A stretch of DNA of 64,000 bases from Hyphomicrobiales bacterium (GTDB lineage Bacteria > Pseudomonadota > Alphaproteobacteria > Rhizobiales > Devosiaceae). Below the pieces are notes generated by a model, which saw nothing but the letters and a program-made list of their open reading frames with translations, did no database searches and was not told the DNA's origin. The position numbers and the translations under genes were made by a program. How positions within the stretch are numbered: the stretch's first letter is position 1; every line of letters starts with the position of its first letter. The stretch is from NCBI GenBank assembly GCA_004144345.1, contig SEEL01000012.1, forward strand, positions 1 to 64,000, read 5' to 3'. This document shows, piece by piece, positions 34,065 to 50,227 of this stretch.

Positions 34065-34846
34065 ATCGCGAGATATTCGCGGCGGAGGGCTTCGTCGGCG
34101 AGAACGTCGGCGGCCGAGCCGGTGAAGGCGACTTCGCCGGTATCGAGGATGACGGCGCGGTCGGCGAGGCGCAGGGCGGCGACGGCGTTCTGTTCGACGA
34201 TGATCGTCGTGATGCCGATGGCCTTGATCTCGTTGAGGATCTTTTCGATCTCGGAAACGATCACCGGCGCCAGCCCTTCATAGGGCTCGTCGAGCAGCAG
34301 CAGCTTGAGATTGCGCGCGAGCGCCCGCGCGATGGCCAGCATCTGCTGTTCGCCGCCCGACAGCGTCACGCCGTCCTGGCGGCGGCGTTCGGCAAGGCGG
34401 GGGAAGTGCGAGTAGATGCGGTCGAGATCCCAGCCGGTGCCGGGAGCGACCTGCGCGAGAGTCAGATTTTCCTCGACCGTCAGCCCCTGGATGATGCGCC
34501 GGTCCTCGGGCACCAGCTGAACGCCGGCACGCGCCGCTTCGAACGATCTCATGCGATGGAGGGCTAGGCCCTCAAGCCAGATCTCGCCCGATCGCAGGGT
34601 CGGGTTGTCGACCCGCGCGATGGCGCGCAGCGTCGAGGTCTTGCCCGCGCCGTTACGGCCGAGCAAGGCGAGAATCTCGCCATGCTGCACATCGAGCGAG
34701 ACGCCCTGCACGATGTAGCTCTCGCCGTAATAGGCGTGGATGTCCTTGGTCGAAAAGAACGGCGCCTTGGTCGCCGCAGTCGCGGCAGCGGGCGCGGTGT
34801 CAATAGCGGGGGCGAAGCTCGAATCCATCTCTATTGCACTCATCAA
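34061..34846 (-). CDS. livF: branched-chain amino acid-type ABC transporter ATPase LivF
   Basis: A 261-residue ATPase with Walker A GRNGAGKTS, signature LSGGEQQ, Walker B LLLLDEPYEGLAP and the LivF-type IVEQNAVAAL segment. An Ala-rich N-terminal extension of about 25 residues precedes the domain. ATG overlaps the livG stop by four bases. The liv-type symbol reflects family, not proven substrate. Confidence 0.9.
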   Translation of the reverse strand: MMSAIEMDSSFAPAIDTAPAAATAATKAPFFSTKDIHAYYGESYIVQGVSLDVQHGEILALLGRNGAGKTSTLRAIARVDNPTLRSGEIWLEGLALHRMRSFEAARAGVQLVPEDRRIIQGLTVEENLTLAQVAPGTGWDLDRIYSHFPRLAERRRQDGVTLSGGEQQMLAIARALARNLKLLLLDEPYEGLAPVIVSEIEKILNEIKAIGITTIIVEQNAVAALRLADRAVILDTGEVAFTGSAADVLADEALRREYLAI

Positions 34847-35634
34847 TGGGCCTCGAGACGGTGCGCGCCGCCAAGATAGGCCTCCTGCACCTTTTCATTG
34901 CCGCGAATGGCGTCGGGCAATCCCTCCGCGATGATCTTGCCACCCGAGAGGACCGAGATCTTGTCGGCCAAGGAGAACACAACATGCATGTCATGTTCAA
35001 TGATCACCTTGGTCATGCCGCGCGCCTTGATCTTCTGGAGCAGTTCGATGGTGGTGTTGGTGTCGTGCCGGCTCATGCCTGCAGTCGGCTCGTCGAGCAG
35101 CAGCAGGCGCGGATGCTGGATGAGGCACATGGCAAGTTCCATGCGGCGCTTGTCGCCCCGGCTGAGAGCGCCGGCATGTGAGTCCCGCCGCTCGTAGAGG
35201 CCGACATCGGCGAGCAGTTCCTCGGCCTCGCGGCGAATGGCGCTCTCGGAGCCGAGGCCGCGCAGCATGTTGACCTGGAACGCGCCATCGCGCTTGGCGA
35301 AGGCGGGGATCATCACATTGTGCAGCACCGAGAGGTCCGCGAAGATCTCCGGCGTTTGGAACACTCGGGCGATGCCCAGCTGGTTGATCTGGTGCGGCTT
35401 GCGGCCGGTGAGGACGGCGCCGTCGAACACCACTTGCCCGCTGGTCGGCGCCAGCTTGCCGATGATGACATTGAGCAGCGTCGACTTGCCGGCCCCGTTG
35501 GGGCCGATGATGGCGTGGGTCTCGCCCTCGATCACCTGCAGGTCGATATCGCTCAGGGCATGCAGGCCGCCGAAGCGCTTGTGGACATCGGCGACGTGGA
35601 GAACGACGTTTGGCGTTGTGGTCATGGCCGTCAC
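34843..35634 (-). CDS. livG: branched-chain amino acid-type ABC transporter ATPase LivG
   Basis: A 263-residue ATPase with Walker A GPNGAGKST, signature LSRGDKRRMELA (a divergent ABC signature), Walker B LLLLDEPTAGMS and the LivG-type IIEHDMHVVFSLAD. The signature reads SRGD in place of SGGQ; this kind of variation is seen in urea/amide-type homologues. The stop lies beside the livF start. Confidence 0.9.
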   Translation of the reverse strand: MTAMTTTPNVVLHVADVHKRFGGLHALSDIDLQVIEGETHAIIGPNGAGKSTLLNVIIGKLAPTSGQVVFDGAVLTGRKPHQINQLGIARVFQTPEIFADLSVLHNVMIPAFAKRDGAFQVNMLRGLGSESAIRREAEELLADVGLYERRDSHAGALSRGDKRRMELAMCLIQHPRLLLLDEPTAGMSRHDTNTTIELLQKIKARGMTKVIIEHDMHVVFSLADKISVLSGGKIIAEGLPDAIRGNEKVQEAYLGGAHRLEAH

Positions 35635-36771
35635 CTATTCTGCCGGCTGAACATGGGCGGTGGGACGCGGCGTCGGGGCACCGGGCCGGCGGAAGAGATT
35701 GGCGAGCCGGCGCACGCCTTCCATGATGCCACCGGGCAGGAAAATCACGACGAGCACGAAGACGAGACCCAGCGTCAGGAACCAGCCATCGCCGACGAAT
35801 TTCGAGGTGACCTTGACCGCGAGTTCCGACACGCCCTCTGGCAGGAAGCTGTAGAAGCGCACGAGGATCTGGTCGTTGAGCGCCGACAGGATGTTCTCGA
35901 AATATTTGATCAGCCAGGCGCCGATCACCGGTCCGACCAGCGTGCCGACGCCGCCGAGGATGGTCATCAGCACCACCTCGCCCGAAGCGGTCCACTGCAT
36001 GCGCTCGGCACCGGCCAGCGGATCGGTGACCGCGAGCAGCGCGCCGGCAAGACCGGCATACATGCCCGAGATCAGGAAGGCCGACAGGGCGTAGGGACGC
36101 GTGTTGAAACCGGTGAACTGCATGCGCGTCTGGTTGGACTTGATGGCCTTGAGCATCATGCCGAAAGGCGAGCCCGCGATGCGCTGGGCGAGGACGAACG
36201 CCACGATGAGGAAGAAGGCGCAGAAGTAGAAGCCGGCATAGCCGCTGAGCTGCTGGCCGAGGAGAGTCGGCACGGGCTGGCCCACATAGGTCTGGCCGGT
36301 GATCGCATCGAGCACGCGCGGATCGCGCAGGGTCAGCTGCAGACCGGTTTCGCCATTGGTGATCGGCGTGAGCACCGAGTAAGCGAGATTGTAGCTCATC
36401 TGCGCGAAGGCGAGCGTCAGGATGGAGAAGTAGATGCCGGAGCGCCTGAGGCTAAGATAGCCGATGACCAGCGCGAAGAGGCCGGAGACGATTACGGCAA
36501 GGATCAGCGCCGGGAAGGCATCGAGCGACAGCAGCTTGAACGACCACACGGCGGTGTAGGAGCCGACGCCGAAGAATGCGGCATGGCCAAAGCTCAGATA
36601 GCCCGTGAGGCCGAACAGGATGTTAAAGCCCACGGCGAAGATGCCGTAGATCATGAAGCGCTGCAGCAGATCCGGGTAGCCGGCGCCGAAGGGCGCGAGC
36701 CAGATGGGCATAGCGAGCACGACGAGGGCGAAGCCGACCGAGAGCAGCAGATCGTTGCGTGACGAGGACAT
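35635..36771 (-). CDS. livM: branched-chain amino acid-type ABC transporter permease LivM
   Basis: A 378-residue inner-membrane permease of the LivM type ([22 protein letters not shown], then [15 protein letters not shown] near the C terminus). A proline-rich cytoplasmic tail ends the protein. It begins right after livH; the binding-protein gene is upstream. Confidence 0.9.
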
Positions 36772-36772
36772 A

Positions 36773-37804
36773 TCAGGACTCCATCACGCCACGGCGGCCC
36801 ATCAATCCGCGCGGACGGACGAGCAGGATGACGACGGCAACGAGGTAGATGATGATCTGGTCGATGCCCGGGAACACGGCCTTGACCTGGGTCATCGAGG
36901 CAAAGGACTGGAGGATGCCGAGCAGAAAGCCGGCGGCGACCGCGCCTGGTAGCGAGCCCATGCCGCCCACCACGACGACCACGAAGCTGAGGACGAGGAA
37001 GTCCATGCCGATATGGTAGTTGGGTGGCAGAAGCGGCGTGTACATGACGCCGGCCATGCCCGCGACGACGGCGGCAAGGCCGAACATGAAGGTGAAGCGC
37101 CGGTCGATATTGATGCCGAGCAGCCCGACCGTTTCACGGTCCGCCATGCCGGCGCGCACCACCATGCCGAAGGTGGTGAATTGCAGGAAGGCGAAGACGC
37201 CGCCGATGACGACTGCAGCGAACAGGAAGTAGATCAGCCGCCACACCGGATAGGTGATGATGTTGGCCTGCATGCCGAGCCACGCGCCGATATCGGCAGC
37301 GCCGCGCGCGGCGTCGGGCATGGGCTGCGGCATGGGGTTGGGCCCGAAGAAGGCCTTGATGACTTCCTGCGCCACGATGGCAAGGCCGAAGGTCACGAGG
37401 ATCTGCTCGGCATGCGTGCGCTTGTAGAAATGCTTGATGATGCCGCGCTCAAGCGCAACGCCGATCACGAACATCACGGGGATGGTGATCAGGAGCGAGA
37501 GGGGCACCGAATAGTTGACGAGGACCGCGCCCGTATCGCCGAGCCACGCCTGCATAAGCGGCTCGCGTATTTCCAGCGGGGCGCCCCAGGGGGAAAGCTG
37601 TTCGGGGTCGATGGTGACCGTTTCCATGGTGAGGACCATGCGCACGGTGACCGCGCAAAAGGCTCCCAGCATGAACAGCGCGCCATGCGCGAAATTGACG
37701 ACGCCCAGCGTGCCAAAAACGAGGGTGAGGCCAAGCGCGATGAGCGCATAGGCGGCGCCCTTGTCGAGCCCGTTGAGGAACTGGAGGAAGATGACCTCGA
37801 ACAT
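36773..37804 (-). CDS. livH: branched-chain amino acid-type ABC transporter permease LivH
   Basis: A 343-residue permease opening [23 protein letters not shown] with the LivH hallmark [16 protein letters not shown] and late [18 protein letters not shown] periplasmic insertion of about 40 residues follows the second helix ([22 protein letters not shown], in part), longer than usual. First permease after the binding-protein gene. Confidence 0.9.
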
Positions 37805-37848
37805 TGTATGCTCCGTTCAGCGATGGGTCGCTGTTGCCCGGCAGAGAT

Positions 37849-37874
37849 CGTCACCGCCGCGTACGGCGGTGACG
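37849..37874 (-). other. strong hairpin after liv binding-protein gene
   Basis: CGTCACCGCCG (37849-37859) and CGGCGGTGACG (37864-37874) form a perfect 11-base stem with a four-base loop, 25 bases after the binding-protein stop and 45 bases before livH. No T-run. The same arrangement occurs after three other binding-protein genes in the window. Confidence 0.6.
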
Positions 37875-37899
37875 TTCATGCTACGGGACTTGCCGTCGA

Positions 37900-39258
37900 T
37901 CAGGCACAGACCGGCGCCGGCTCGGCCGGGCCAAGCTCGCCACCGAAGATGGTGTGATCGTAGGTGGTGACGTCGCGCGACACTTCCTGCACGACGTTGA
38001 GCACGTCGAACTGGCTGGGCGGGGCCGCATTGCCCTGCACGACGAGCACGGACTTCATGCACTGGTGGTCTTCGGCACGGTAGAGGGTCGGACCATTGCC
38101 CATGCCGTCGAACTCGTGACCCTCGAGGGCCTTGATGATCTCGGGCGGGTAGAAGGTGCCGGCACGTTCGACCGCATCCGCATAAAGCAGGGCCTGGACG
38201 TAAGCCGTGTGCGCAGCCTGCGACGGCGGCGAGCCATAGGCGGCGCCGAAGGACTTGGTGAAGGCCTTCGAGCCTTCGTCCTGCAGGTTCCAGTGCCAGT
38301 TGGACGTACCGAACACACCACGCACGGCTTCGCCGGCGCCCTTGGCCATCAGCTCGGAGATCAGCGGCGTGATGATCTCGAACTGCTTGCCGTTGGCCTG
38401 GCGGTCGCGCAGGCCGAACTGCACGGCCTGCGGCAGCGAGTTCACCATGTCGAGGCCATAGTGGTTGAGGATCAGCACGTCGGCGCCCGAATTGAGGATC
38501 GGGGTGAGGTACTGCGAGTAGTCCGTCGAGCCGAGCGGCGTGCGGACGGCGGCGACGGTTTCCCAGCCGAGGGCTTCGGTCGCGTTCTTGATCGACTCTT
38601 CCTGGGTCCAGCCCCAGGTGTAGTCGGCGGTCAAATGGTAGGCGCGGCGATCCTTGCCGTACTGCTCGCCCAACACCGGAGCGAGAGCGATACCGGACTG
38701 GTAAGCATTGAAGAAGTGACGGAAGCCGTAGCGGCGCTTGTCCTTGCCGGTGGTGTCGTTGGAGTGAGTGAGGCCGGCCATGAAGATGATGCCCATCTCC
38801 TGGCAGAGACCCTGCACGGCGATGGCCTCGCCCGATGACGAACCGCCGGTGATCATGATCGCGCCATCGCGCTCGATCATGCGGGTGGCGCCAGCGCGGG
38901 CCACGTCGGACTTGGTCTGGCTGTCGGACGACACATAGGTCACCTTCTTGCCCAGGATGCCATTGCCCTTGAGCACGCTCGGCTTGAGCACGTTCAGCAG
39001 GCCGCCGTCGCCCTCGCCATTTAGGTGCTGGAAGGCCAGCTCATAGGCCTTCTGTTCGTCGGCGCCCTCTTCGGCATAGGCGCCGGTGAGCGGCAGGTTC
39101 AAACCGATGGTGACGGTGCTGCCGGTGGGGTTGTTGCAGAACTCCTGCGCCCAGGCACCACGGGTAAAGATCAGCGGGGAAACGCCGGTGGCCAGAATAC
39201 CGGCAAGGCCGGTCTTCAGCACGCCGCGGCGGCTGAAGCCCTTCGATGAATTGGTCAT
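37900..39258 (-). CDS. branched-chain amino acid/amide-type ABC substrate-binding protein
   Basis: A 452-residue periplasmic protein. The N terminus (FSRRGVLKTGLAGILATG) has the twin-arginine motif, so Tat export is likely. The Peripla_BP_6 fold is clear (VTIGLNLPLTGAYAEEGADEQKAYELA, in part, and ITGGSSSGEAIAVQGLCQE). ATG 39258 has AAGGAGGAG six bases upstream. First gene of the five-gene importer; the ligand could be an amino acid, amide, urea-like compound or aromatic acid. Confidence 0.87.
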   Translation of the reverse strand: MTNSSKGFSRRGVLKTGLAGILATGVSPLIFTRGAWAQEFCNNPTGSTVTIGLNLPLTGAYAEEGADEQKAYELAFQHLNGEGDGGLLNVLKPSVLKGNGILGKKVTYVSSDSQTKSDVARAGATRMIERDGAIMITGGSSSGEAIAVQGLCQEMGIIFMAGLTHSNDTTGKDKRRYGFRHFFNAYQSGIALAPVLGEQYGKDRRAYHLTADYTWGWTQEESIKNATEALGWETVAAVRTPLGSTDYSQYLTPILNSGADVLILNHYGLDMVNSLPQAVQFGLRDRQANGKQFEIITPLISELMAKGAGEAVRGVFGTSNWHWNLQDEGSKAFTKSFGAAYGSPPSQAAHTAYVQALLYADAVERAGTFYPPEIIKALEGHEFDGMGNGPTLYRAEDHQCMKSVLVVQGNAAPPSQFDVLNVVQEVSRDVTTYDHTIFGGELGPAEPAPVCA

Positions 39259-39371
39259 AAGCTCCTCCTTGAGCGGCGGGAGCGGGTGCATTGCCAGCTT
39301 CCTCGGCGCGTCGACCTACTATCCGGGCGCCAGCAAACGTTCGCAATATCTCGTTGATATCCTTGCCTAAT

Positions 39372-39417
39372 TTTGTAAATGCTTGAACTTGATCCGCCCC
39401 AAAACTGTCAATACAGT
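39372..39417. promoter_or_regulatory. operator candidates between liv operon and XRE/ScfR gene
   Basis: TTTGTAAA (39372-39379) differs by one base from TTTGCAAA, the core bound by actinobacterial ScfR-class regulators (RamB, PrpR). ACTGT-CAAT-ACAGT (39404-39417) is an inverted repeat 17 bases before the regulator start. Both lie in the 176-base divergent promoter region. Confidence 0.4.
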
Positions 39418-39434
39418 GACAAATGGGGGGGAAG

Positions 39435-41054
39435 ATGCGCGCACCGATCGGGCTCAGAATCAGGTCGCAGCGCCGCGCCGTGGGCATTTCTCAGGCCACC
39501 CTCGCCCGCCGCGCCGGCATCTCGGCGAGCTACCTCAACCTCATCGAGGGCAACAAACGCCATGTCGGTGGCTCGCTGTTGCTCCGCCTCGCCCAGGCGC
39601 TCGAACTCGATATCGGCGAGCTGAGCGGCGAATCGGAGCATCGGCTGATCGCCGAAGTCGACGAGGCGCTAGCGGATCCGATGCTGGGCGGCATCGTCAT
39701 GCCGTCGGCACACGATCTGGTGGCGCAGCAACCCGCCGCCGCACTCGCCATTGCCCGCCTCCATCGTGCCTATGAGGGCGCGCGGGCCACGGCGGACGAT
39801 TATGCCGACCGGCTGCGGGCCGACCCGCTGCTGGCGCAATTGCTGCATCGCGTGCTCTCGGGCATCACCGCCGTCCGTTCGAGCGCCGAAATTCTCGACG
39901 AAGTACCCGACCTCGACGAAGCCGAGCGCCGGCGCTTCATCGAGTCCCTGACGCGCGAAACCAAGGGCCTCAGCGAAGTAGCGCGCGGCCTCGTTGGCCA
40001 GTTCGAGGTGGATGCCAAGGCGCGCCGCCTGTCGCCGCAACGCGAGCTCGACGATCTGATCTTCGCCAACGACAATTACTTTCCCGCGCTGGAGCAAGTG
40101 GCGGCGGAGCTGCGCCGCGGCATTGAGGCGGAGGGTCCGTTCGGCGAAGCGACATTGACGACGCTGCTTGCCCGCCGCTTCGGTATTGCCGTGCGGAGGA
40201 GCGCTGGCCGCGAAGTCGACGCGGCCGGCTTTCCCGGCCAGTACCATTATGATGCAACGGCGCGAACCATGTGGTTCCAGACCAGCACAGTGGCGGCGAC
40301 GCGCCAGTTCCAGCTGACGCGCCTGTTCGCCGAACTGGTCGCATCGGCCGCGATCGAGCGCGAGGTCGAGGCGCCCGAACTGACCTCGACGACATCGCGG
40401 CGGCTCGCCTATCGCGCCCTCGGTTCCTATCTCGCGGGCGCTATCGTGTTCCCCTATTCGGAGTTCCTGGCTCGGGCGGAAGCGCTGACCTACGACATCG
40501 AGGCGCTGCAGCAGGCCTATATTGCGAGCTTCGAGCAGGTGGCGCACCGGCTGGTGACGCTGCGCAAGCCCGGCGAGAGCGGCGTGCCGTTCGGCTTCCT
40601 GCGCTCGGACCCGGCGGGACGGTTGACCAAGCACTTCCCCCTGCCCGGCCTGCCCCTGCCAAGCGCCGGGCACGCCTGCCCTCTGTGGGCCATCTACGAC
40701 GCCTTCCGCACGCCCGAACGGGCGGTGCGCCAATTGGTGCAGTTCCCCGACGGCTCGCGCTATCTGTTCGTGGCGCGCGCCCAGTCGCGCCGCCCCTCGA
40801 ACTTTGCCGACCGGCCGATCCATACCTCGATCATGCTGGCCTGCGACGCCTTGCAGGCCGACCGCACCGTCTATGGCGCGGGGCTGCCGCTCGCCGATGC
40901 CGCGCTGGATGTGCCGGTGGGGCCGGCCTGCCGGCTTTGCCCGCGGCGCGACTGCGCCGAGCGGCAGGAGGAAGCGCTGGCCGCCGGCGGGCGGCCGCTG
41001 GCCATTCGCGCGCCCCTCGTGGCCCGAACAATGGGTGATGGCGAAGCGGAATGA
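39435..41054 (+). CDS. XRE/ScfR-type regulator with ImmA/IrrE and DHp-like domains
   Basis: A 539-residue protein. An XRE helix-turn-helix (residues about 6-62, RSQRRAVGISQATLARRAGI) begins it. The C-terminal half matches the ImmA/IrrE plus DUF2083 layout of short-chain fatty acyl regulators, ending in the typical Cys cluster CRLCPRRDCAERQ. Between them, residues about 136-190 (HRVLSGITAVRSSAEIL and onwards) resemble a kinase DHp helix pair. ATG 39435 chosen over 39423 because it follows GGGGGGG. A run of kinase and receiver genes follows. Confidence 0.85.
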   Translation: MRAPIGLRIRSQRRAVGISQATLARRAGISASYLNLIEGNKRHVGGSLLLRLAQALELDIGELSGESEHRLIAEVDEALADPMLGGIVMPSAHDLVAQQPAAALAIARLHRAYEGARATADDYADRLRADPLLAQLLHRVLSGITAVRSSAEILDEVPDLDEAERRRFIESLTRETKGLSEVARGLVGQFEVDAKARRLSPQRELDDLIFANDNYFPALEQVAAELRRGIEAEGPFGEATLTTLLARRFGIAVRRSAGREVDAAGFPGQYHYDATARTMWFQTSTVAATRQFQLTRLFAELVASAAIEREVEAPELTSTTSRRLAYRALGSYLAGAIVFPYSEFLARAEALTYDIEALQQAYIASFEQVAHRLVTLRKPGESGVPFGFLRSDPAGRLTKHFPLPGLPLPSAGHACPLWAIYDAFRTPERAVRQLVQFPDGSRYLFVARAQSRRPSNFADRPIHTSIMLACDALQADRTVYGAGLPLADAALDVPVGPACRLCPRRDCAERQEEALAAGGRPLAIRAPLVARTMGDGEAE

Positions 41055-41102
41055 GTGTGCTTAACTGTGCCGTTTCGCGAAAGCGGACAATAAGGGGGGA
41101 AT

Positions 41103-41483
41103 ATGGCGGTCGACGTACTGATTGCCGAGGATGAACCAAGCATCCTGGAATCGCTCGACTTCATCCTGCGCCGTGCGGGCTGGTCGATTGCTGCGGTGAC
41201 CGATGGCGACGCCGTCATCGGCATGCTGCGCAAGACGCCGCCCAAGGTGCTGGTGCTCGACGTCATGCTGCCCAAGCGCTCGGGCTTCGACATCCTCAAG
41301 CAAATCCGCGCCGACGACATGCTGCACGATCTGCCGGTACTGATCCTCACCGCCAAGGGCCAGGCCAAGGACCGCCGTACGGCTGAAGAACTGGGAGCCG
41401 ACGGCTTCATCACCAAGCCCTACGCCAATGCCGAAGTGCTCGATGAAGTTCGCCGCCTGATCGGGGCGGCACAGTCGGGCTGA
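41103..41483 (+). CDS. stand-alone response regulator receiver
   Basis: A 126-residue CheY-like protein with acidic pocket Glu9/Asp10, phospho-acceptor Asp53 (VLVLDVMLP), Thr83 (LILTAKG) and Lys105 (ITKPYAN): all the residues needed for phosphorylation. There is no output domain. Encoded 48 bases after the XRE gene and four bases before the small membrane protein, so one operon is likely. Cognate kinase: the symporter-kinase downstream. Confidence 0.92.
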   Translation: MAVDVLIAEDEPSILESLDFILRRAGWSIAAVTDGDAVIGMLRKTPPKVLVLDVMLPKRSGFDILKQIRADDMLHDLPVLILTAKGQAKDRRTAEELGADGFITKPYANAEVLDEVRRLIGAAQSG

Positions 41484-41487
41484 CGCC

Positions 41488-41718
41488 ATGGGCGGCAAGC
41501 TCATCAGTGGGGCGTTGTTCCTCACCATATTGGGCACCTTGCTGCTGTTGCCGCCGCTTGCCAATGTCTTCCAATTGCAGCGGCGCTTCTTCGGCCTGCC
41601 GGCAGAACTGATCTATCTGTTCGCCTGCTGGGGAGTACTGATCGCGGCTGCTTTCTGGCTGAGCCGGCGACTGCCGCGCGAGGCCGAAGCCGAGCCGCGC
41701 AACGAGGATGACACCTGA
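41488..41718 (+). CDS. small two-helix membrane protein (CbrX-like position)
   Basis: A 76-residue protein with two hydrophobic helices (LISGALFLTILGTLLLLPPLA and ELIYLFACWGVLIAAAFWL, residues about 5-25 and 40-58) and an acidic tail. Its stop overlaps the next ATG as TGATG. In Pseudomonas a small gene cbrX overlaps cbrA in the same way, and several sodium-solute symporters have two-helix partner subunits. I do not recognise the sequence itself; the role is inferred from position. Confidence 0.7.
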   Translation: MGGKLISGALFLTILGTLLLLPPLANVFQLQRRFFGLPAELIYLFACWGVLIAAAFWLSRRLPREAEAEPRNEDDT

Positions 41719-44384
41719 TGCTGTCGTCCGAACTCGTCATCGCGATCGCCATCGGTTATGTGGGCCTGCTGTTCCTCATCGCCTATGTCAGCGATCGCCT
41801 CACGCGCAGCGGCAAGGCGGCTTTCCTCCACTCGCCCTTCGTCTATACGCTCGCCATTTCGGTCTATTGCACCAGCTGGACCTTTTACGGCGCGGTCGGT
41901 TCGGCGGCGCGCAACGGGCTCGAATATCTCGCGATCTATCTGGGTCCCACCATCGTCTTCATCGGCTGGTGGTTCATCCTGCGCCGCCTCGTGCGCATCA
42001 GCCACAACCAGCGCATCACTTCGATCGCCGATCTGCTGTCCTCGCGTTTCGGCAAGTCGAGCCGGCTGGCGGTGCTGATCACCATCATCGCCGTCATCGG
42101 CATCGCCCCCTATATTGCGCTGCAGCTGAAAGCGGTGACCTCGTCCATCCACGCCATCTCACGCGTCGGCAGCGGCAGCATCGGCGGCATCGACGAGGTG
42201 AGCCTCGCTCTCGCGGTGGCGGCTGGAATGGCGCTCTTCACCATTCTGTTCGGCACCCGCAATGTCGACGCCAAGGAGCAGCATCTGGGCGTCGTGGCGG
42301 CCATCGCCTTCGAGGCTATCGTCAAGCTCGCGGCGCTCGTCGCCACCGGCATCTTCGTCATCTATGTGGGTGGCGGACTGGAGGCGATCTTCTCACGCGC
42401 CGAGGCGGCAGGGGTCGACATCTACTCCATCGGCACCTTCGACGATCGCTGGGTCGCCATGAATGTGCTGTCGGCGGCAGCGATCCTCTGCCTGCCGCGC
42501 CAGTTCCAGATCACCGTGGTCGAGAACTCGAACGAGAACCATCTGCGCACCGCCAGCTGGGCCTTCCCGGGCTATCTGCTGCTGGTGAGCCTGTTCACGC
42601 TGCCCATTGCGCTCTTCGGGCTGACCTCGATGCCGGCGGGCACGAACCCCGACATGTTCGTGCTCACCCTGCCGCTGGCCGCCGGCCATGAAGGCCTCGC
42701 GCTGTTCAGTTTCATCGGCGGCTTCTCATCGGCCACCTCGATGATCATCGTCGAATCCATTGCGCTCTCGATCATGGTGTCCAACCACATCGTCATGCCG
42801 CTGGTACTGCGCTTCACGCAGGGTCGCGGCACGGTGCGCGGGCAAGGCGTCAGCCAGTTGCTGCTCAACTCGCGGCGCTTTTCGATCGCCGTCATCCTCG
42901 GGCTCGGCTTCCTCTATTTCTACCTGACGCGCGACTCCAACGCGCTGGCCCCGATCGGCCTCATCTCCTTCTGCGGCGTGGCGCAGTTCCTGCCCTCGAT
43001 CCTCGCCGCGCTGTTCTGGCGCGAGGCAACGCTGAAGGCGGCAACGGCCGCTGTCGCCGTGGGCTTCGTGGTCTGGGCCTGGTCGAGCTTCATGCCATCC
43101 TTTGCCGGCTCCTCGACGCTGGTGGCAGGCATCATGGCGCAGGGTCCGTGGGGCCTGACCTGGCTGAGGCCCGAAGCGCTGTTCGGCCTGACCGGCATCG
43201 ACCCCCTGGTCAATGTCGTGTTCTGGAGTCTCTTCCTCAACACCCTCACGCTGGTGGTTGTCTCGCTGCTCACATCGCCCTCTGCGCTCGAGCGCGTGCA
43301 GGCCGGGTTGTTCATCGATCTGTTCCGGCCATCGACCTCCGGTAGCCCATCGGTGATCCGCGGCTCGGCCACGGCGCACGATCTGTTCTTCGTGGCGGAG
43401 CGCGTCCTTGGCAGCACGCGCGCCACCGCCCTGTTCGCTGATATTCCACCGGACCCGCCGCCGCAGTTCATCGACCGTCTCGAACGCGAACTCGCCGGCT
43501 CGGTCGGTGCCGCCTCCGCCCATGTGATGCTGAGCAAGGTCGTCTCCGGTGACGCGATCTCGATCGAGGAGGTCTTCAAGATGGCCGGCGAGACGCGTCA
43601 GGCCATCGAGTATTCGCAAGAACTCGAACGCACCTCCGAGGAACTGCGCTCGACCGCCGCCCAGCTGGAGAATGCCAACCTGAAGCTGCGCGAACTCGAC
43701 GGCCAGAAGGACGAGTTCCTGAGCCAGGTGAGCCACGAAGTGCGGACGCCGATGGCCTCGATCCGTTCCTTCTCCGAGATCCTGCTCGAGGATGACCTCA
43801 GTGAGGGCCAGCGCCACCGCTTCGTGTCGACGATCCACCAGGAGAGCTTGCGGCTCACCAAGCTGCTGGACGAAATCCTCGATCTCAGCACGCTCGAGCG
43901 CGGCGAGCGCCCGTGGGAGAATGTCAGCGTCGATGCCGAAGCGGCGCTGGAGCGCGCCATCGACGTGTGTGCCCCGCTGGCGAAGCGCCGCAACATGCAG
44001 ATCGTCGTCGGCCCACGCGCCGGCCGCGCCACGATCGAAGGCGACGCCGACCGGCTGTGCCAGGTGCTGATCAATCTGCTGTACAATGCGATCAAGTACA
44101 ACGACGCGCCGGAACCCATGGTGCAGGCGCGCTCGCGCTGCAGCCGCGGCCGCTACGTCATCGAGATTGCCGACAACGGTCCGGGCATTGCCAAGGCCGA
44201 CCGCAAGCTGATCTTCGAGAAGTTCTCACGCGGCCAGAGCGGCGTCCCCACCCCCGCCGGTGCCGGGCTCGGCCTCGCCATCTCGCGGCAGCTGGTCGAA
44301 CGCATGAACGGCAAGCTGGAACTGGTCCCCAGCCCCGACCGCGGCGCCTGCTTCCGCGTTACCCTTCCGCTGCTTTCACGCTGA
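41718..44384 (+). CDS. sodium:solute symporter-STAC-histidine kinase (CbrA/CrbS-like)
   Basis: An 888-residue sensor. About 13 helices of a sodium-solute symporter fold (residues 1-540, with YTLAISVYCTSWTFYGAVG and CLPRQFQITVVENSNENHL) are followed by a STAC-like linker (about 560-620, RLERELAGSVGAASAH). A coiled coil, a HisKA domain with His673 (VSHEVRTPMASIRSFSEIL) and a HATPase domain (LLYNAIKY, DNGPGIAK, GAGLGLAIS) complete it. No PAS domain is visible. Transport or binding of a carbon source may be the signal. Confidence 0.93.
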   Translation: MLSSELVIAIAIGYVGLLFLIAYVSDRLTRSGKAAFLHSPFVYTLAISVYCTSWTFYGAVGSAARNGLEYLAIYLGPTIVFIGWWFILRRLVRISHNQRITSIADLLSSRFGKSSRLAVLITIIAVIGIAPYIALQLKAVTSSIHAISRVGSGSIGGIDEVSLALAVAAGMALFTILFGTRNVDAKEQHLGVVAAIAFEAIVKLAALVATGIFVIYVGGGLEAIFSRAEAAGVDIYSIGTFDDRWVAMNVLSAAAILCLPRQFQITVVENSNENHLRTASWAFPGYLLLVSLFTLPIALFGLTSMPAGTNPDMFVLTLPLAAGHEGLALFSFIGGFSSATSMIIVESIALSIMVSNHIVMPLVLRFTQGRGTVRGQGVSQLLLNSRRFSIAVILGLGFLYFYLTRDSNALAPIGLISFCGVAQFLPSILAALFWREATLKAATAAVAVGFVVWAWSSFMPSFAGSSTLVAGIMAQGPWGLTWLRPEALFGLTGIDPLVNVVFWSLFLNTLTLVVVSLLTSPSALERVQAGLFIDLFRPSTSGSPSVIRGSATAHDLFFVAERVLGSTRATALFADIPPDPPPQFIDRLERELAGSVGAASAHVMLSKVVSGDAISIEEVFKMAGETRQAIEYSQELERTSEELRSTAAQLENANLKLRELDGQKDEFLSQVSHEVRTPMASIRSFSEILLEDDLSEGQRHRFVSTIHQESLRLTKLLDEILDLSTLERGERPWENVSVDAEAALERAIDVCAPLAKRRNMQIVVGPRAGRATIEGDADRLCQVLINLLYNAIKYNDAPEPMVQARSRCSRGRYVIEIADNGPGIAKADRKLIFEKFSRGQSGVPTPAGAGLGLAISRQLVERMNGKLELVPSPDRGACFRVTLPLLSR

Positions 44385-44392
44385 TCCACGCG

Positions 44393-45412
44393 CTAGCGCG
44401 GCTTCGCAGGAAGGGAGTCCGGCACAGCTGCCTCCTCGTTGAGAGCGTCCAGCGTGCGGGAGGCGCGGCGGCGTTCGCGCAGATGATTGAATTGCTGGTC
44501 GGCGAGGACGCCCACGAGGATCACCGCACCCATCACGGCGAAGTTCAGCGATGAGGGGATGCCGAGGAGATTGACGAGGTTCTGTAGTTCCTGCAGCAGC
44601 ACCGCGCCCAGCACCACGCCGATGACCGAGCCTTCGCCGCCGCGCAGCGAGAAGCCGCCGAGAACCGCAGCAGCAATGGCGTAAAGTTCGTAGAAATTGC
44701 CATGCGATGAGGGCTGCACGGATTTGGTGAACATGGCGAAATAGATCGCCGCGATCGAGGTGAGCACGGCGCAGATCACATAGGCCGAGGTGATGACGAG
44801 ACCGGTGCGGATGCCGGAATAGCGGGCGGCGTCCTCGTTCTTTCCAACGGCGCTCAGATGCCGTCCGTAGACCGAGCGGTGCAGCACCACCCAGCAGACC
44901 GCGCCCAGCAGGAGCATCGCGAAGAATGAATGCGGAATGCCGAAGGAGCGCCCGATGGTAAGCCACTCAAGTTCAGGATAGCTGGCACCGAACGGAAAGC
45001 CCGCGGTCGCTTCGCCGGTGTAGCCGCGCGCCACGCCGCGATAGATGAGAAGCCCGCAGAGCGTCACCACGAAGGGCTGCATCCTGAGCTTTGTGATGAG
45101 CAGGCCATGCGCGAGGCCCATCAGCGTGCCGACACCGATGGTGATCAGCATGGCCAGCGGCCACGGCACGCCGAGCTTGCCGACCATGTCGACGAAGATC
45201 ACACCGAGCAGCGCGATCATCGAGCCTGCGGACAATTCGATGCCGCCGGTCATGATCACGAAGCCCTGCCCGATGGCGAACAGGCCGAAGAGGCCGATCA
45301 AATTTGCGGTGTTGCCGAGATTGATCGGCGACAGGAACAACGGGTTCCGCAAATAGACGATGGCCCCCACGATGATGATCAGGACGGCGAGGCCGAAATC
45401 CTTCTTCTGCAT
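44393..45412 (-). CDS. CUT2 sugar ABC transporter permease (RbsC-like)
   Basis: A 339-residue inner-membrane protein with the RbsC-family motif GFVIMTGGIELSAGSMIALLGVIF and a late region GGEGSVIGVVLGAVLLQELQNLVNLL. A hydrophilic tail (about 35 residues) ends it. Last gene of a binding protein-ATPase-permease operon. Only eight bases separate it from the convergent kinase gene. Sugar specificity unknown. Confidence 0.9.
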   Translation of the reverse strand: MQKKDFGLAVLIIIVGAIVYLRNPLFLSPINLGNTANLIGLFGLFAIGQGFVIMTGGIELSAGSMIALLGVIFVDMVGKLGVPWPLAMLITIGVGTLMGLAHGLLITKLRMQPFVVTLCGLLIYRGVARGYTGEATAGFPFGASYPELEWLTIGRSFGIPHSFFAMLLLGAVCWVVLHRSVYGRHLSAVGKNEDAARYSGIRTGLVITSAYVICAVLTSIAAIYFAMFTKSVQPSSHGNFYELYAIAAAVLGGFSLRGGEGSVIGVVLGAVLLQELQNLVNLLGIPSSLNFAVMGAVILVGVLADQQFNHLRERRRASRTLDALNEEAAVPDSLPAKPR

Positions 45413-45420
45413 GCTTCCCC

Positions 45421-46935
45421 CTAATGCGCGCCGACGGCCAGCCGGAGCACGGCCTGTTCGGCGAAATGTTCACGCGCCAGCGCGCCCGCCACCCTGCCCT
45501 CGCGCAGTACGACGATGCGGTCGGACACCCCGATGACTTCCTCCATGTCGCTGGAGATCATGACGATGCCGACGCCAGCATCGGCGAGTTCGCGCATCAG
45601 CCGGTAAATCTCGGACTTCGCGCCGACGTCGATGCCGCGCGTCGGCTCGTCGAAGATGATCAGCCGCGGCCGCATCGACAGCCATTTGGCGAGCACGACC
45701 TTCTGCTGGTTGCCACCGGAGAGCTCCGCCGCGACGCGCGATACATCGGCCATGCGGATGCCAAGACGGCGGCGCTGATCCTCGGCGCGGTCGCGGAGCA
45801 GCCGGTCCGACACGAGGCCGCGCCGGGAGACCGATTGCAGGTCGGCCAGCGAGATATTGTCGGCAATGGTGCTCTCGATCACGAGGCCAGTCCGCTTGCG
45901 ATCCTCGGGCACCAGATAGAGCCCCGCGCGAATGGCATCGTGGGGCGTGCGCCCCGCGAAGGGTGCACCAGCGAACTCGATGTCGCCATCGAGCATTGGC
46001 GCGATGCCGAACAGCGCCTCGGCCAGCTCGGTTCGGCCCGCTCCCACGAGACCGGCGACGCCAAGTATTTCTCCTGCGCGCACCTCGAGATCGGCACGGG
46101 CACGCGGCCGGGCCGCGGTGCGGACGCCGCGAAGCGAGAGGACGGTGTCGCCGGCCGGCCGCGCCGGTGGTGTGTAGATGGTCTTGAGATCGCGCCCGAT
46201 CATCAGCCGGATCATGGCGTCGTGGCGGATATTACTGCGCGCAAGTTCTCCGGCCACCCGGCCGTCGCGCAGCCCCACCACGCGATCGGCGCACTCCTCG
46301 ATTTCGGCCAGCCGGTGCGAGATGTAGATGACCGCGATGCCCTGCTGCTTTAGATCGGCGATGACCTTCATCAGGGTCTTCGTCTCGGCCAGCGTAAGCG
46401 ACGACGTCGGCTCGTCCATGATGACGATGCGCGCCTCGATCGACAGGGACTTGGCGATCTCGAGCAACTGCCGTTCGGCGAGCGACAGATCGGCGACCAA
46501 CGTATCGGGACCAAATTTCGCGCCGACTCGGGCCAGCAACGGACGCGCCTCATCGCGCATCGCCTGCCGGTCGAGCAGGCGCAGCGGGCCATGCCGTTTC
46601 TCGCGACCGAGAAAGATGTTGGCCGCCACATCGAGATTGTCGAAGACGTTGAGTTCCTGATGCACGAAGGCAATGCCGGCGCCCTGCGACTGGCGCACCG
46701 TGAGATGGCTGCTGGCGGTATCACCGATGACGATGCGGCCGGCGCTCGGCTCGATGACGCCGCCGAGGATCTTCATCAGCGTCGATTTTCCCGCACCATT
46801 CTCGCCGATCAGCGCCAGCACTTCACCGGCGTGCACGGCCAGCGTGACATCGGAGAGCGCGACGACTCCGGGATAGACCTTGGAGATGTTCTCAAGGGCC
46901 AGAAGTGGTCGTGGCGCTAAATCGGTTGAAGTCAT
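45421..46935 (-). CDS. CUT2 sugar ABC transporter ATPase, double domain (RbsA-like)
   Basis: A 504-residue protein with two tandem ATPase domains. The first has Walker A GENGAGKST and Walker B IVIMDEPTSSL; the second has an incomplete Walker A, as is usual in this family, and ABC signature LSGGNQQ. ATG 46935 follows a weak ribosome site; a TTG two codons earlier is also possible. Separated from the binding-protein gene by 105 bases holding two hairpins. Confidence 0.9.
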   Translation of the reverse strand: MTSTDLAPRPLLALENISKVYPGVVALSDVTLAVHAGEVLALIGENGAGKSTLMKILGGVIEPSAGRIVIGDTASSHLTVRQSQGAGIAFVHQELNVFDNLDVAANIFLGREKRHGPLRLLDRQAMRDEARPLLARVGAKFGPDTLVADLSLAERQLLEIAKSLSIEARIVIMDEPTSSLTLAETKTLMKVIADLKQQGIAVIYISHRLAEIEECADRVVGLRDGRVAGELARSNIRHDAMIRLMIGRDLKTIYTPPARPAGDTVLSLRGVRTAARPRARADLEVRAGEILGVAGLVGAGRTELAEALFGIAPMLDGDIEFAGAPFAGRTPHDAIRAGLYLVPEDRKRTGLVIESTIADNISLADLQSVSRRGLVSDRLLRDRAEDQRRRLGIRMADVSRVAAELSGGNQQKVVLAKWLSMRPRLIIFDEPTRGIDVGAKSEIYRLMRELADAGVGIVMISSDMEEVIGVSDRIVVLREGRVAGALAREHFAEQAVLRLAVGAH

Positions 46936-46955
46936 CGGCAACTCTGGAGCGGAAG

Positions 46956-47027
46956 GCCCGCCGGCTATCAGGGGCCGGCGGGCAGAGGAGATGGGACCGC
47001 ACCGGCCCCGGGAGCGTTCCGGTGCGG
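46956..47027 (-). other. double hairpin between binding-protein and ATPase genes
   Basis: First stem: GCCCGCCGGC (46956-46965) with GCCGGCGGGC (46974-46983), ten bases, perfect, eight-base loop. Second stem: CCGCACCGG (46997-47005) with CCGGTGCGG (47019-47027), nine bases, perfect. Both lie within the 105-base gap after the binding-protein stop. Likely mRNA 3' protection or partial termination. Confidence 0.6.
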
Positions 47028-47040
47028 CAGCATGGCAGCC

Positions 47041-47988
47041 CTAGCCGCCGATGCGTTCCTTCAGCTCGGCCTCGAAGGCATCGACATTAGCCTTGTCGAT
47101 GACCTTGGTCGGCACAATGATCAGGCCATCCGCAGGGACGCCCGACTTGTCGCCTTCGAGATATTTCGCCAGCAGATGCATGCCCTGATAGCCCCACTGA
47201 TAGGGGTCCTGGACTACCGTGCCGGCGAAACTGCCCTCGCGGACTGCACCGAGCGTGATCGGATCCTCATCGAAGCCGATGACGGTAACCTGCCCAAGCT
47301 TGCCGGCGGCCTGCAGGGCTTCGTAGATCTTGGGCGGGTTGTAGGAATAGAACCCGACCATGCAGTTGATGTCGGGATTGGCGGCGAGGACGTCATCGAC
47401 ATTGGAGCGCGCCCGGGCGAAATCTACATCGTCGCCACGCACATCCACCAGCTCGATGCCCTTGCCCTCGACCGCCTGACGGAAGCCGGCGATGCGCTCG
47501 ATGGCGTTGTCAGCACCGAGGAAGCCGACAAAGCCCATGCATTTGGCGCCATTGGGCAATGCCTTGACGGCGATCTCACCAGCCTGGACGCCGGCCAGCG
47601 TATTGGACGAGCCCAGATAGGCGATACGGTTGCTCGCCGGGGCGTCACTGTCGGTGGTGAAGAGCGGCACCTGCGCGGCAATGCGGTTGAAGGCGTCGAT
47701 CGAGTTCTTCGGATCGGCCGACGAGATCATGATGGCATCGGTGCCGGCGGCGACGAGATCGTCCATCAGGGCATTCTGCAGGGCTGCAGTACCCTGCGCG
47801 GGATAGCGGAACTGCAGCTCGTAGTTCGGCAATTCGGACTGCGCCTTGTTCACGCCGGCTTCCGCCAGCTTCCAGAAATCGGAAGCGGCATTGACCACGA
47901 AGGCGAGCTGCTTCTTGTCCTGCGCCACGGCCGGACCGGCCAGCACGGCCGCAAGTGCAACGATAGATACGGTAAGTTTGACGTTCAT
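47041..47988 (-). CDS. CUT2 sugar ABC substrate-binding protein
   Basis: A 315-residue periplasmic protein with a signal peptide (MNVKLTVSIVALAAVLAG, cleavage near AVAQD) and the Peripla_BP_4 fold (LAFVVNAASDFWKLAEAGVNKA, in part, DPYQWGYQGMHLLAKYL near the end). ATG 47988 has GGGAGG six bases upstream; the earlier open frame lacks a signal. First gene of the CUT2-A importer. Ligand unknown, probably a monosaccharide or polyol. Confidence 0.9.
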   Translation of the reverse strand: MNVKLTVSIVALAAVLAGPAVAQDKKQLAFVVNAASDFWKLAEAGVNKAQSELPNYELQFRYPAQGTAALQNALMDDLVAAGTDAIMISSADPKNSIDAFNRIAAQVPLFTTDSDAPASNRIAYLGSSNTLAGVQAGEIAVKALPNGAKCMGFVGFLGADNAIERIAGFRQAVEGKGIELVDVRGDDVDFARARSNVDDVLAANPDINCMVGFYSYNPPKIYEALQAAGKLGQVTVIGFDEDPITLGAVREGSFAGTVVQDPYQWGYQGMHLLAKYLEGDKSGVPADGLIIVPTKVIDKANVDAFEAELKERIGG

Positions 47989-48161
47989 TGGTTTCCTCCC
48001 AAATCGGCAGGGCGGGTTAGCCGCTCCCGACGACGTTTTCCCTGTCCCGCGGCACCCATTGCCGCCAGACGTCATACCCATCGCGATCCACGAGCGGACG
48101 CCGGTAGCGGGAACCCCGCCAGTCCGGCACGCGAGCGGTATCCTGTGCCGCGTCCCTGCCC

Positions 48162-49136
48162 CTAACCCGGGTACCAGACGACGCGTGGATCATCGGCCGC
48201 CCGAACGTAGTTCCAGGCCTGCGCGATGAGTTGTTCGAGATCGACAAGCGGTCGCCATCCGAGCACCAGGCGGGCCTTGGCGTTGTCGAGCCAATTGCTG
48301 AAATAGGGTGTCGCGATATCGACCACGGGCAGACCGTGCGCGGCGCTCAAGTGCCGCGCCACATCGCCATAGTCGACCGGCTCGGACATCGAGATGTTGA
48401 ACAGTTCGCCACTGGCGGCGGGATTGTCGAGCGCCGCAAGAATGGCGCGCACCAGATCATCCACATGAATGAAGTTGCGCTTCAGCGGCGTGCCGTCGGC
48501 CGCGCGCAGTAGCGGCACCGTTTCGGTCTGCGCCAGGCGCTCGATCTGGTCAGCGCTGAAGAACTCGCTCCAGGCGGGACCGCCGAACTGCGCGCGAAAA
48601 CTGAGGACATGGCGGAAGTCGTCCTTTTCCATGATCCACGGCGCGCGCAGGCAGCAACCATTGAGGCCGTACTGGATGGCGTACTGCTCCAGCATCACTT
48701 CCTCGATGACCTTGGTCAGCGCATAACAGCCGGGATAGGCGCGGCGCGGTGAGCTCTCGGTGATGGGAGCGTCGTAGTGCTGGAAGATGTGCCCCACCGA
48801 GCAGTCGCCGCCGATCAGCACGAACTGCCTTGCCGTGGGCGAGGCGCGAAACGCCTCGAGCAAATTGAACATGCCCTTCAAGCCAACATCGATGGCGAGG
48901 TCCGGCGATTCCTTGACCGCCGCCATGTGGAGCACATGCGTGACGTCAGCCATGGCGAGCCGCATGGCAGCCGGATCAGAAAGCGAAGCGCGCACCACTT
49001 CGACGGCCGGATGATTGAGGGTCCGGTTGTTGCAGACCGCCCGGACGGACCAGCCAGCAAAGCGCTGTTCCGCCAGGAAGGCAGGCAGGAAGTTCGTTCC
49101 CACCTTGCCTGTGATGCCGGTAACCAGAAGCTTCAA
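48162..49136 (-). CDS. NAD-dependent epimerase/dehydratase family protein
   Basis: A 324-residue extended SDR with N-terminal TGITGKVG cofactor motif, VLHMAAVKESPD, and the active-site Tyr-Lys in CYALTKVIEE. TTG start with no strong ribosome site (GGGGCCTGACAG). It lies between the two CUT2 binding-protein genes, in the same direction as both, and probably acts on a sugar or sugar nucleotide brought in or made nearby. Specific reaction unknown. Confidence 0.85.
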   Translation of the reverse strand: MKLLVTGITGKVGTNFLPAFLAEQRFAGWSVRAVCNNRTLNHPAVEVVRASLSDPAAMRLAMADVTHVLHMAAVKESPDLAIDVGLKGMFNLLEAFRASPTARQFVLIGGDCSVGHIFQHYDAPITESSPRRAYPGCYALTKVIEEVMLEQYAIQYGLNGCCLRAPWIMEKDDFRHVLSFRAQFGGPAWSEFFSADQIERLAQTETVPLLRAADGTPLKRNFIHVDDLVRAILAALDNPAASGELFNISMSEPVDYGDVARHLSAAHGLPVVDIATPYFSNWLDNAKARLVLGWRPLVDLEQLIAQAWNYVRAADDPRVVWYPG

Positions 49137-49237
49137 CTGTCAGGCCCCTTCAGACGCGGGCCACAAGCCCGAACGCAATGCGCGCCTCCAGTGGGCAGGG
49201 CACCACCGGGCGCCATGCCATTGCTTGGAGGACAAGG

Positions 49238-50227
49238 TTACGGGGCGCAGAAGCCCGGTTCTTCATGGGTGCAGACGTCGAGGCCCGTATATTGCGGGTC
49301 GGGCACCGTCTCGCCGTTGATGAGCTTGATCATCACATCGGGAGCCTTGAGGCCCATCTCGCGCGGCCGCTGCCCGATCTGGGCGTGGCTGCGGCCTTCG
49401 TTGAAGGCCTGGACCTGCGGCGGCAGCGTGTCGCCGGCAACGATGATGAGATCATTGCTCTTCAGCCGGTCCATGACCTGGTCGGTGACCTGGGCATAGG
49501 CCTGCGGCGCGAACTGGGCCCAGCCACCGATCAGGATGAAGGCGTCGAGATCGGGGTTGGCCGTGAACACGTCGGCCATCTGCTGATTGGCCAGATCGAT
49601 CTGGTCATTGGTGAACACGGGGCAGCCCTGGATTTCGGTCCAGCCACCTTCGCCAGCGAGGCGTGCCGTACCCTTGGCGCCCGAGATCGTGTCGCGGAAG
49701 CCGGCGGCCCGCGCATTGATGTTGTCAGCAGCGACGTTGCCGAGCTGGAGGCAAATGGTGCCGCCCGCCGGCTTCAGCCGCTGCGCCTGCTGGGCCATCA
49801 TCACGCCCATCAGATAGTTGTCGGTGCCAAGGAACGTGGCACGCAGCCCCCTGTCGGCTTCCGACAGATCCGCATCGACGGTCATGACCGGAATCTTGGG
49901 CGCGATTTCCTTGAGCCGGTTGGCCATCGCGGGCGCGTTGGAGGGCGAAATGGCAATCGCCGCGACGCCCTTGGTGATCAGATCGTCGACAATCTGCACC
50001 TCACCCGCCTCGTCGGCGCTCGACGCCGGGCCGGTGTAGAAGCATTCATATTCTGAACTCGGATTGGCCGCGGCCCAATCCTGACAGCCGAGATTGATCT
50101 GCTCGAAGAACGGATTGTCCAAACCCTTGACCACGATCGCCAGGGTTTTCTTTTCCTGCGCCTGAGCACCAGCGGCAGCCATCGCCAGAATGGCGGTGAG
50201 CGCGGCCAGCTGACTTACGTACCTCAT
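49238..50227 (-). CDS. CUT2 sugar ABC substrate-binding protein, Cys-rich
   Basis: A 329-residue periplasmic protein (signal peptide MRYVSQLAALTAILAMAAAG, cleavage near AQAQE) with the Peripla_BP_4 fold (LAIVVKGLDNPFFEQINLG). Six cysteines occur in the mature part: GCQDW, YECF, TICLQ, GCPVF, DVCTH and GFCAP. That is unusual for this family and suggests disulfides. Divergent from the ATPase-permease pair at 50483-52242, its probable partners (CUT2-B). Confidence 0.88.
   Translation of the reverse strand: MRYVSQLAALTAILAMAAAGAQAQEKKTLAIVVKGLDNPFFEQINLGCQDWAAANPSSEYECFYTGPASSADEAGEVQIVDDLITKGVAAIAISPSNAPAMANRLKEIAPKIPVMTVDADLSEADRGLRATFLGTDNYLMGVMMAQQAQRLKPAGGTICLQLGNVAADNINARAAGFRDTISGAKGTARLAGEGGWTEIQGCPVFTNDQIDLANQQMADVFTANPDLDAFILIGGWAQFAPQAYAQVTDQVMDRLKSNDLIIVAGDTLPPQVQAFNEGRSHAQIGQRPREMGLKAPDVMIKLINGETVPDPQYTGLDVCTHEEPGFCAP

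Follow-up and report, generated by a model that had tools for sequence, protein, structure and literature searches.

A DHp-like hairpin in an ScfR-family regulator encoded with a lone receiver and a symporter-histidine kinase: a candidate two-component system with its output on a separate protein

The locus described here lies in the window, which is the whole stretch of 64,000 nucleotides analysed (positions 1 to 64,000 of contig SEEL01000012.1, assembly GCA_004144345.1, from a Hyphomicrobiales bacterium of the Devosiaceae). An XRE/ScfR-type regulator, a lone receiver, a 76-residue open reading frame (ORF) and a symporter-histidine kinase are encoded there one after the other, divergently from a five-gene ATP-binding cassette (ABC) operon (34061-39291, minus strand), the starts at 39291 and 39423 being separated by 131 bp (Table 1). 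In many bacteria these genes stay linked as a group. On the evidence of profile searches and structural models, the regulator carries a hairpin of the dimerisation and histidine phosphotransfer (DHp, HisKA-like) kind between its DNA-binding and sensing domains, and the explanation that we favour is a two-component system with its output on a separate protein. The initial annotation of this DNA, made from the letters alone, had placed the regulator, receiver and symporter-kinase genes correctly, as the ORF coordinates confirm; its gene set holds for the signalling genes but overlooked the divergent ABC importer, the operator and the 76-residue ORF. The ATG at 39435, behind a G-rich stretch, looks a likelier start of the regulator than 39423; residue numbers are counted from 39423 and are lower by 4 if the start is at 39435.

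Table 1. Genes and sequence features of the locus, in window positions
Feature	Position	Strand	Description
XRE/ScfR-type regulator	39423-41054	+	543 aa; Pfam HTH_3, Peptidase_M78 (IrrE-like), ScfRs PF09856
Linker helix (residues 104-133) and DHp-like hairpin (residues 135-203, H142) in regulator	39732-40031	+	
Predicted operator box TTTTGTAAAT	39371-39380	+	between divergent regulator and importer genes
Weak second box, TGT-AAT core	39403-39412		about 32 bp downstream of first box; by eye
Lone receiver	41103-41483	+	126 aa; D53, T83, K105; Pfam Response_reg, E 1.5e-26
76-aa ORF	41488-41718	+	two apparent membrane helices (by eye)
SSS (SLC5-like) symporter-histidine kinase	41718-44384	+	888 aa; H673; Pfam HisKA and HATPase_c
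ABC importer substrate-binding protein	37900-39291	-	Peripla_BP_6; probable target gene
ABC permease 1	36773-37804	-	UrtB/LivH-like below cut-off; conserved in loci
ABC permease 2	35635-36771	-	BPD_transp_2; conserved in loci
ABC ATPase 1	34843-35634	-	ABC_tran and BCA_ABC_TP_C; conserved in loci
ABC ATPase 2	34061-34846	-	homologues in conserved order

By its domain matches, the regulator belongs to the ScfR family and carries an added domain. It scores 143.3 bits against ScfRs PF09856 (cut-off 24), helix-turn-helix (HTH) and IrrE-like domains were also found, and its C-terminal part matches PrpR of M. tuberculosis (6cyj) with an E-value of 6.8e-91 (profile A3); a CX2CX4C motif, formed by C503, C506 and C511, is invariant across the A3 alignment. 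According to the excerpts of the literature to which this and all later citations refer, the same motif holds the [4Fe-4S] cluster of PrpR, an ScfR-type protein that forms a tetramer (PMC6765138), and the ScfR/IsaR regulators PrpR, RamB and PccR have in common with the window regulator the XRE HTH, the IrrE-like and PF09856 C-terminal domains, the CX2CX4C motif and two-box operators (PMC10370305). Unlike these, the window regulator has an extra DHp insert of some 60-70 residues between the HTH and the sensing core, two-component partners and an importer as its probable target. The ordinary ScfR proteins L030, L032 and L066, the last being the second ScfR of the window genome, are without the insert in our alignments, and the remaining ones probably lack it too because their matches begin near residue 200.

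The insert, about 70 residues long and placed between HTH and sensing core, is related to HisKA. H142-RVLSGITAVRSSAEIL of the regulator and H673-EVRTPMASIRSFSEIL of the kinase are identical at 7 of 17 positions (manual count), pairwise BLASTP of regulator residues 113-186 against kinase residues 636-720 gives 38 bits (E 1e-6), and the NCBIfam CreC kinase model matches regulator residues 137-204 with 22.8 bits (E 3.7e-5), so that the alignment with the kinase HisKA domain to which the initial annotation had drawn attention is real and above chance. Pfam HisKA was not detected in the window regulator itself; in the segment alignment A4, which has 37 members, it reaches E <= 0.1 for 20, with 6.1e-5 as the best value. 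The AlphaFold2 model of the whole regulator (mean pLDDT 82) has helices at residues 104-133, 135-158, with H142 within, and 166-203, and the same helices recur in a model of the isolated segment (pLDDT 77, pTM 0.42). When the segment model is searched with Foldseek, histidine kinases take ranks 1-9, seven of them HK853 with a receiver, at probabilities of at most 0.94 and E-values of 0.73-1.9, and a profile search of solved structures gives a weak match to DivL (E 0.42). A HisKA-like fold, as the DHp-like domain first proposed for this protein implies, is supported both by the profile searches of genomes and by the AlphaFold2 models, although the E-values of the structure searches are weak. 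The regulator does not share the features of a histidine kinase: the Pfam scan finds no catalytic and ATP-binding (CA) domain, and the residues at +1 and +5 from the histidine are R and G.

To judge from its similarities, the insert is likely descended from the partner kinase. A profile of 24 inserts (A1) was searched against the window genome, where it matches the adjoining kinase with 57.4 bits and, next best, a kinase with 46.1 bits whose CreC-like label rests on ORF inspection, and against 15 other genomes. In each of these 15, once the regulator itself is set aside, the HisKA domain of the same kinase family scores highest (53-74 bits), the next best scores being 46 in one, 43 in another and at most 32 in the rest, which upholds the earlier suggestion that the insert is specifically akin to its partner; a kinship with just any kinase was rejected on the own-genome runner-up, CreC-like, at 46 against 57 bits. 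The same-family kinase is also the top match in G001, G211, G117 and G041, where it is encoded elsewhere or about 8 kb off. Identity between the regulator DHp and the DHp of the same-locus kinase is 22-50%, with a mean of 32% (61 loci, duplicates included).

The residues kept by the insert were compared in 58 regulator-kinase pairs, duplicates and near-duplicates having been dropped together with six loci without usable kinase sequence (L052, L088, L093, L096, L097 and L100). The inserts keep H in 52 pairs, T/S/N at +4 in 57, R at +10 in 54, S at +11 in 56, E at +14 in 49, I at +15 in all 58 and L at +16 in 50; most retain the motifs I/V-R-S (+9 to +11) and E-I-L (+14 to +16). E at +1, R at +3 and P at +5, each present in 58/58 partner kinases, occur in 6, 3 and none of the inserts. 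The retained positions are those which we take to face the receiver in structures of HK853, and this pattern, in which autokinase residues are lost and receiver-facing ones kept, fits a receiver-binding role. The histidine itself is replaced in the first alignment (75 rows) by F five times, by Q twice and by N twice, and in the second sample (31) once each by L and Q. It is lost in about five lineages, counted by residue and genus, that still carry receiver and kinase in the genome; in L177, from the window's own family, Leu stands for His and the receiver, kinase and importer are all present. Since the histidine can be lost while receiver and kinase stay, its phosphorylation cannot be required in every member.

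The linkage of these genes was surveyed in 289 genomes of the class (regulator matches at E <= 1e-30, with up to four candidates per genome scored). A DHp-type regulator was recognised in 34 genomes by reading of the matches and, with G252, found separately, in 35; a full-length kinase match (E <= 2e-198) is present in 39, and 12 further genomes have weaker, partial matches only. The kinase is encoded in 34 of the 35 genomes with the DHp regulator (hypergeometric 9e-38, uncorrected for kinship), the exception being G064, which is 68% complete and has the gene at a contig end; the conserved co-occurrence of regulator, receiver and kinase that the initial proposal calls for is supported. In a neighbourhood set of 66 loci (excluding 8 duplicates and the truncated loci L065, L081 and L104, but counting the near-duplicates L080 and L084), a divergent binding-protein gene adjoins the regulator in 55 of the 61 loci with enough sequence, the receiver follows the regulator in 50 of 64, and the kinase lies within the locus in 52 of 60; three of the eight kinase exceptions, L050-L052, have it about 8 kb off, cut at the locus end. 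Where the kinase is distant (L037, L039, L040, L044, L050-L052), the ABC operon remains beside the regulator, and the kinase is accompanied by a receiver. Homologues of the regulator without a nearby receiver and kinase, which the original proposal named as evidence against it, do exist (L037, L039, L040 and L093), yet for the first three both partners are encoded elsewhere in the same genome. A second sample, of 30 genomes of the order and a Neorhizobium plasmid, has the receiver in 31/31, the kinase in 30/31 and the binding protein in 30/31, both gaps (L174, kinase; L193, binding protein) falling at contig ends. At the same thresholds, none of 21 ordinary ScfR loci (20 picked by hand, plus L066; a few stretches are ended by contig ends) has receiver, kinase or ABC genes. 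In the Burkholderiales loci L085, L086, L088-L090 and L098, of which L088 is titled only Proteobacteria, the ABC operon is diverged, its binding protein scoring about 250 against about 600 bits. Genome G001, with L044 and L075, has one receiver adjoining the regulator and a second adjoining the distant kinase.

All 107 receiver rows compared, duplicates and the window's own among them, have the Asp and the Lys. The window receiver matched only Response_reg in the Pfam scan, without an output domain; it stands alone, as initially described, and has every phosphorylation residue. Its neighbour is, from sequence comparison, a symporter-kinase of the SLC5-kinase kind: the N-terminal part matches a solved chain titled 'histidine kinase' (10ed_A, E 6.4e-66), and the phosphorylatable His is present in 71/71 rows (duplicates included). 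Pfam SSF was not detected in the window kinase; of five full-length relatives scanned it is above cut-off in one (L047) and below it in L071; the general Pfam scan of the kinases included no STAC model among its matches, no search having been aimed at STAC. The 76-residue ORF, whose TGA overlaps the ATG of the kinase, has no Pfam match; 44 of 67 kinase loci have a weak relative of it immediately ahead of the kinase, and in its place it resembles cbrX, the ORF before cbrA (PMC9100948). Among SLC5-kinase relatives, CrbS handles acetate, CbrA histidine or glucose and RpuS pyruvate, and the window system has in common with CrbS/R, CbrA/B and RpuS/R the symporter fused to a kinase and the carbon-source context (PMC9100948). 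CrbR, however, has its own LuxR output (PMC9100948), whereas the window receiver stands alone and the ScfR protein is its likely output.

Between the regulator and importer genes lies a two-box pattern that is a predicted ScfR-like operator. Of 62 regions upstream of regulator genes, no two more than 70% alike, 33 contain the octamer TTTGTAAA without mismatch, against 0.5 in shuffles, which preserve base or two-base-step content only; with at most one mismatch there are 101 sites on the regulator strand and 17 on the other, against 10 on the regulator strand in shuffles, and box pairs exactly 32 bp apart number 15, with 2 more at 31, against none. The assembly, of 4.1 Mb, has a single exact copy of the decamer TTTTGTAAAT, weak evidence alone because 0.4 copies are expected from base composition. 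A global regulon was rejected, the one-mismatch matches in the own genome (forward and reverse) numbering 9, not above the 18 of a reversed-pattern control. An exact box copy stands just upstream of the regulator gene in 9 of 12 other genomes (not in G236, G159 and G287), and three of those 12 hold 11-19 box copies against 6-9 in the reversed-pattern control. Of 21 ordinary ScfR genes, several of whose starts look wrong, 5 likewise have the octamer upstream, so that the box is probably a trait of the ScfR family. For RamB, a pair of nearly identical boxes separated by an 18-bp spacer is reported (PMC10370305), and the window box resembles the PrpR box, TTTGCAAA (PMC6765138). A scan of 39200-39460 for sigma-70 promoters and terminators found nothing.

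The divergent ABC importer is probably the target of the regulator, as gene order suggests. The label of a urea importer, UrtABCDE, was rejected for it, the binding protein reaching 66 bits against the NCBIfam UrtA cut-off of 493 and permease 1 reaching 167 against 250 for UrtB. Relatives of acetyl-CoA synthetase in L050-L052, L063 and L076 and at one end of L115, and an SSF-type symporter gene divergent from the regulator in L047-L049, offer hints only of acetate or another short carboxylate as the ligand, and acetate itself is not claimed.

With the domain, its kinship, the intact receiver, the gene linkage and the predicted operator established by sequence and model, we give barely better than an even chance to a two-component system in which the receiver docks on the regulator DHp and so switches the regulator of the importer. 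The symporter-kinase would sense, or transport, an extracellular and probably short-chain carbon compound and phosphorylate the lone receiver, which would dock on the regulator DHp via the same face that it uses on the kinase; docking would alter DNA binding at the predicted two-box operator between the regulator gene and the divergent importer, whose promoter would be activated or repressed. Acyl-coenzyme A (acyl-CoA) may be a co-ligand of the regulator, which, since it keeps the PrpR-like core with its iron-sulphur motif, may combine a signal from outside with an acyl-CoA signal from within. DivL, in which Tyr stands at the His site, binds DivK~P (PMC4211667), an analogous case by which docking fits better than a required phosphorylation of the histidine. 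DivL-DivK resembles the regulator insert in that a DHp without a phosphorylatable His reads the state of a receiver (PMC4211667); DivL is, however, a pseudokinase with PAS and CA domains that does not bind DNA, whereas the window DHp sits on a DNA-binding regulator.

Several observations weigh against docking. The AlphaFold2 confidence of the hairpin is moderate (pLDDT 56-82 in ten-residue blocks), no Foldseek match of the isolated hairpin reaches E <= 0.001 while helical proteins of unrelated kinds begin at rank 10, and the solved-structure profile search reaches HK853 at E 0.027 only, with unrelated chains at 0.04-0.1. The regulators of L047, L048, L049, L053, L096 and L116 are without the adjoining ABC operon, and pair-specific covariation was sought in the 58 pairs and none seen, true pairs being no more identical than shuffled ones at almost all positions, so that conservation of the insert is family-wide, not pair by pair. 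Moreover, the histidine is retained in 66 of 75 rows (duplicates and window included) and in 29 of 31 in the second sample, which pure docking would not demand. This retention, with T/S/N at +4 in 57/58, would suit a four-step phosphorelay from the kinase His through the receiver Asp to His142 of the regulator, the phosphohistidine switching DNA binding. Such a relay has an analogue in transfer of the Spo0B or ChpT type and would here end on a transcription factor. Docking is favoured over an obligatory relay because about five lineages, that of L177 included, retain receiver and kinase while the histidine has given way to F, Q, N, L and again Q, and we hold the relay to be unlikely.

The kinship of the two DHp domains would also accommodate a mixed dimer of regulator and kinase DHp, with the regulator tethered to the membrane until the signal or the receiver frees it; the second-helix positions F+13 to F+20 differ between regulator and kinase, though, and the lone receiver would be left without a clear role, and we hold this to be improbable. 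It is likewise improbable that the insert is a mere dimerisation spacer, with regulator and two-component system being neighbours as both serve the importer. The tetrameric state of PrpR (PMC6765138), the loss of the histidine in some members and the lack of locus-specific covariation are all compatible with a spacer, but it would hardly retain the R-S and E-I-L positions or have this particular kinase as its nearest match in all 15 genomes.

Docking on a DHp may extend beyond ScfR proteins. Five kinase genomes were found without a DHp regulator, four of them with an exonuclease gene between receiver and kinase (L068, L070, L071 and L072) and one, L069, with none. DnaQ-type exonucleases of this kind carry a degenerate DHp-like segment: one or both of two DHp profiles match five of the seven tested (E 1.5e-8 to 0.01 for 10,000 sequences), against 0/350 shuffles, and the exonucleases of L068 and L070 have, as judged by eye, E in place of the His. 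The pairing of this segment with the same kinase module also speaks for docking. The DHp could be a portable receiver port, a suggestion to which we grant slightly less than an even chance: one symporter-kinase and lone receiver would serve different DHp-bearing effectors, an ScfR factor or a DnaQ-type exonuclease, the signal passing from kinase to receiver to effector DHp. Among the DnaQ-type exonucleases found with the receiver and symporter-kinase module, that of L068 has a PAS part, and an exonuclease is also present in L049.

An ScfR-like gene beside a two-component system has been noted before: Pden_1785, in the ScfR network of Paracoccus denitrificans, is reported in passing to cluster with two-component system genes (2023, PMC10370305) and resembles the window regulator in this neighbourhood, the comparison being one of reported gene context only. 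The description of the locus as a new signalling system was to that extent too broad, the kinase and regulator families also being known, whereas the split output and the DHp on a DNA-binding protein set it apart from them; in the open-access literature, as far as the excerpts extend, no description of a DHp-bearing ScfR with a receiver and symporter-kinase was found. If docking is correct, it would explain throughout the group by what route a single-domain receiver acts on DNA, and would show that a DHp hairpin can serve a transcription factor as its input. The system makes it testable whether outside sensing and perhaps acyl-CoA status converge on one importer regulator, and it assigns a likely regulator and a predicted operator to the ABC importer.

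In L047-L049 an SSF-type symporter gene, with Pfam SSF seen in L048, is divergent from the regulator and replaces the ABC operon, and CBS-DUF294 and exonuclease relatives are nearby. The record of L082 is titled Mesoflavibacter, a flavobacterial name; its insert is 77% identical to that of a Rhodospirillaceae locus, and the title is probably wrong. Downstream of the kinase in the window, genes for a ribose-type ABC permease, ATPase and binding protein (44393-50227, minus strand) lie outside the conserved set.

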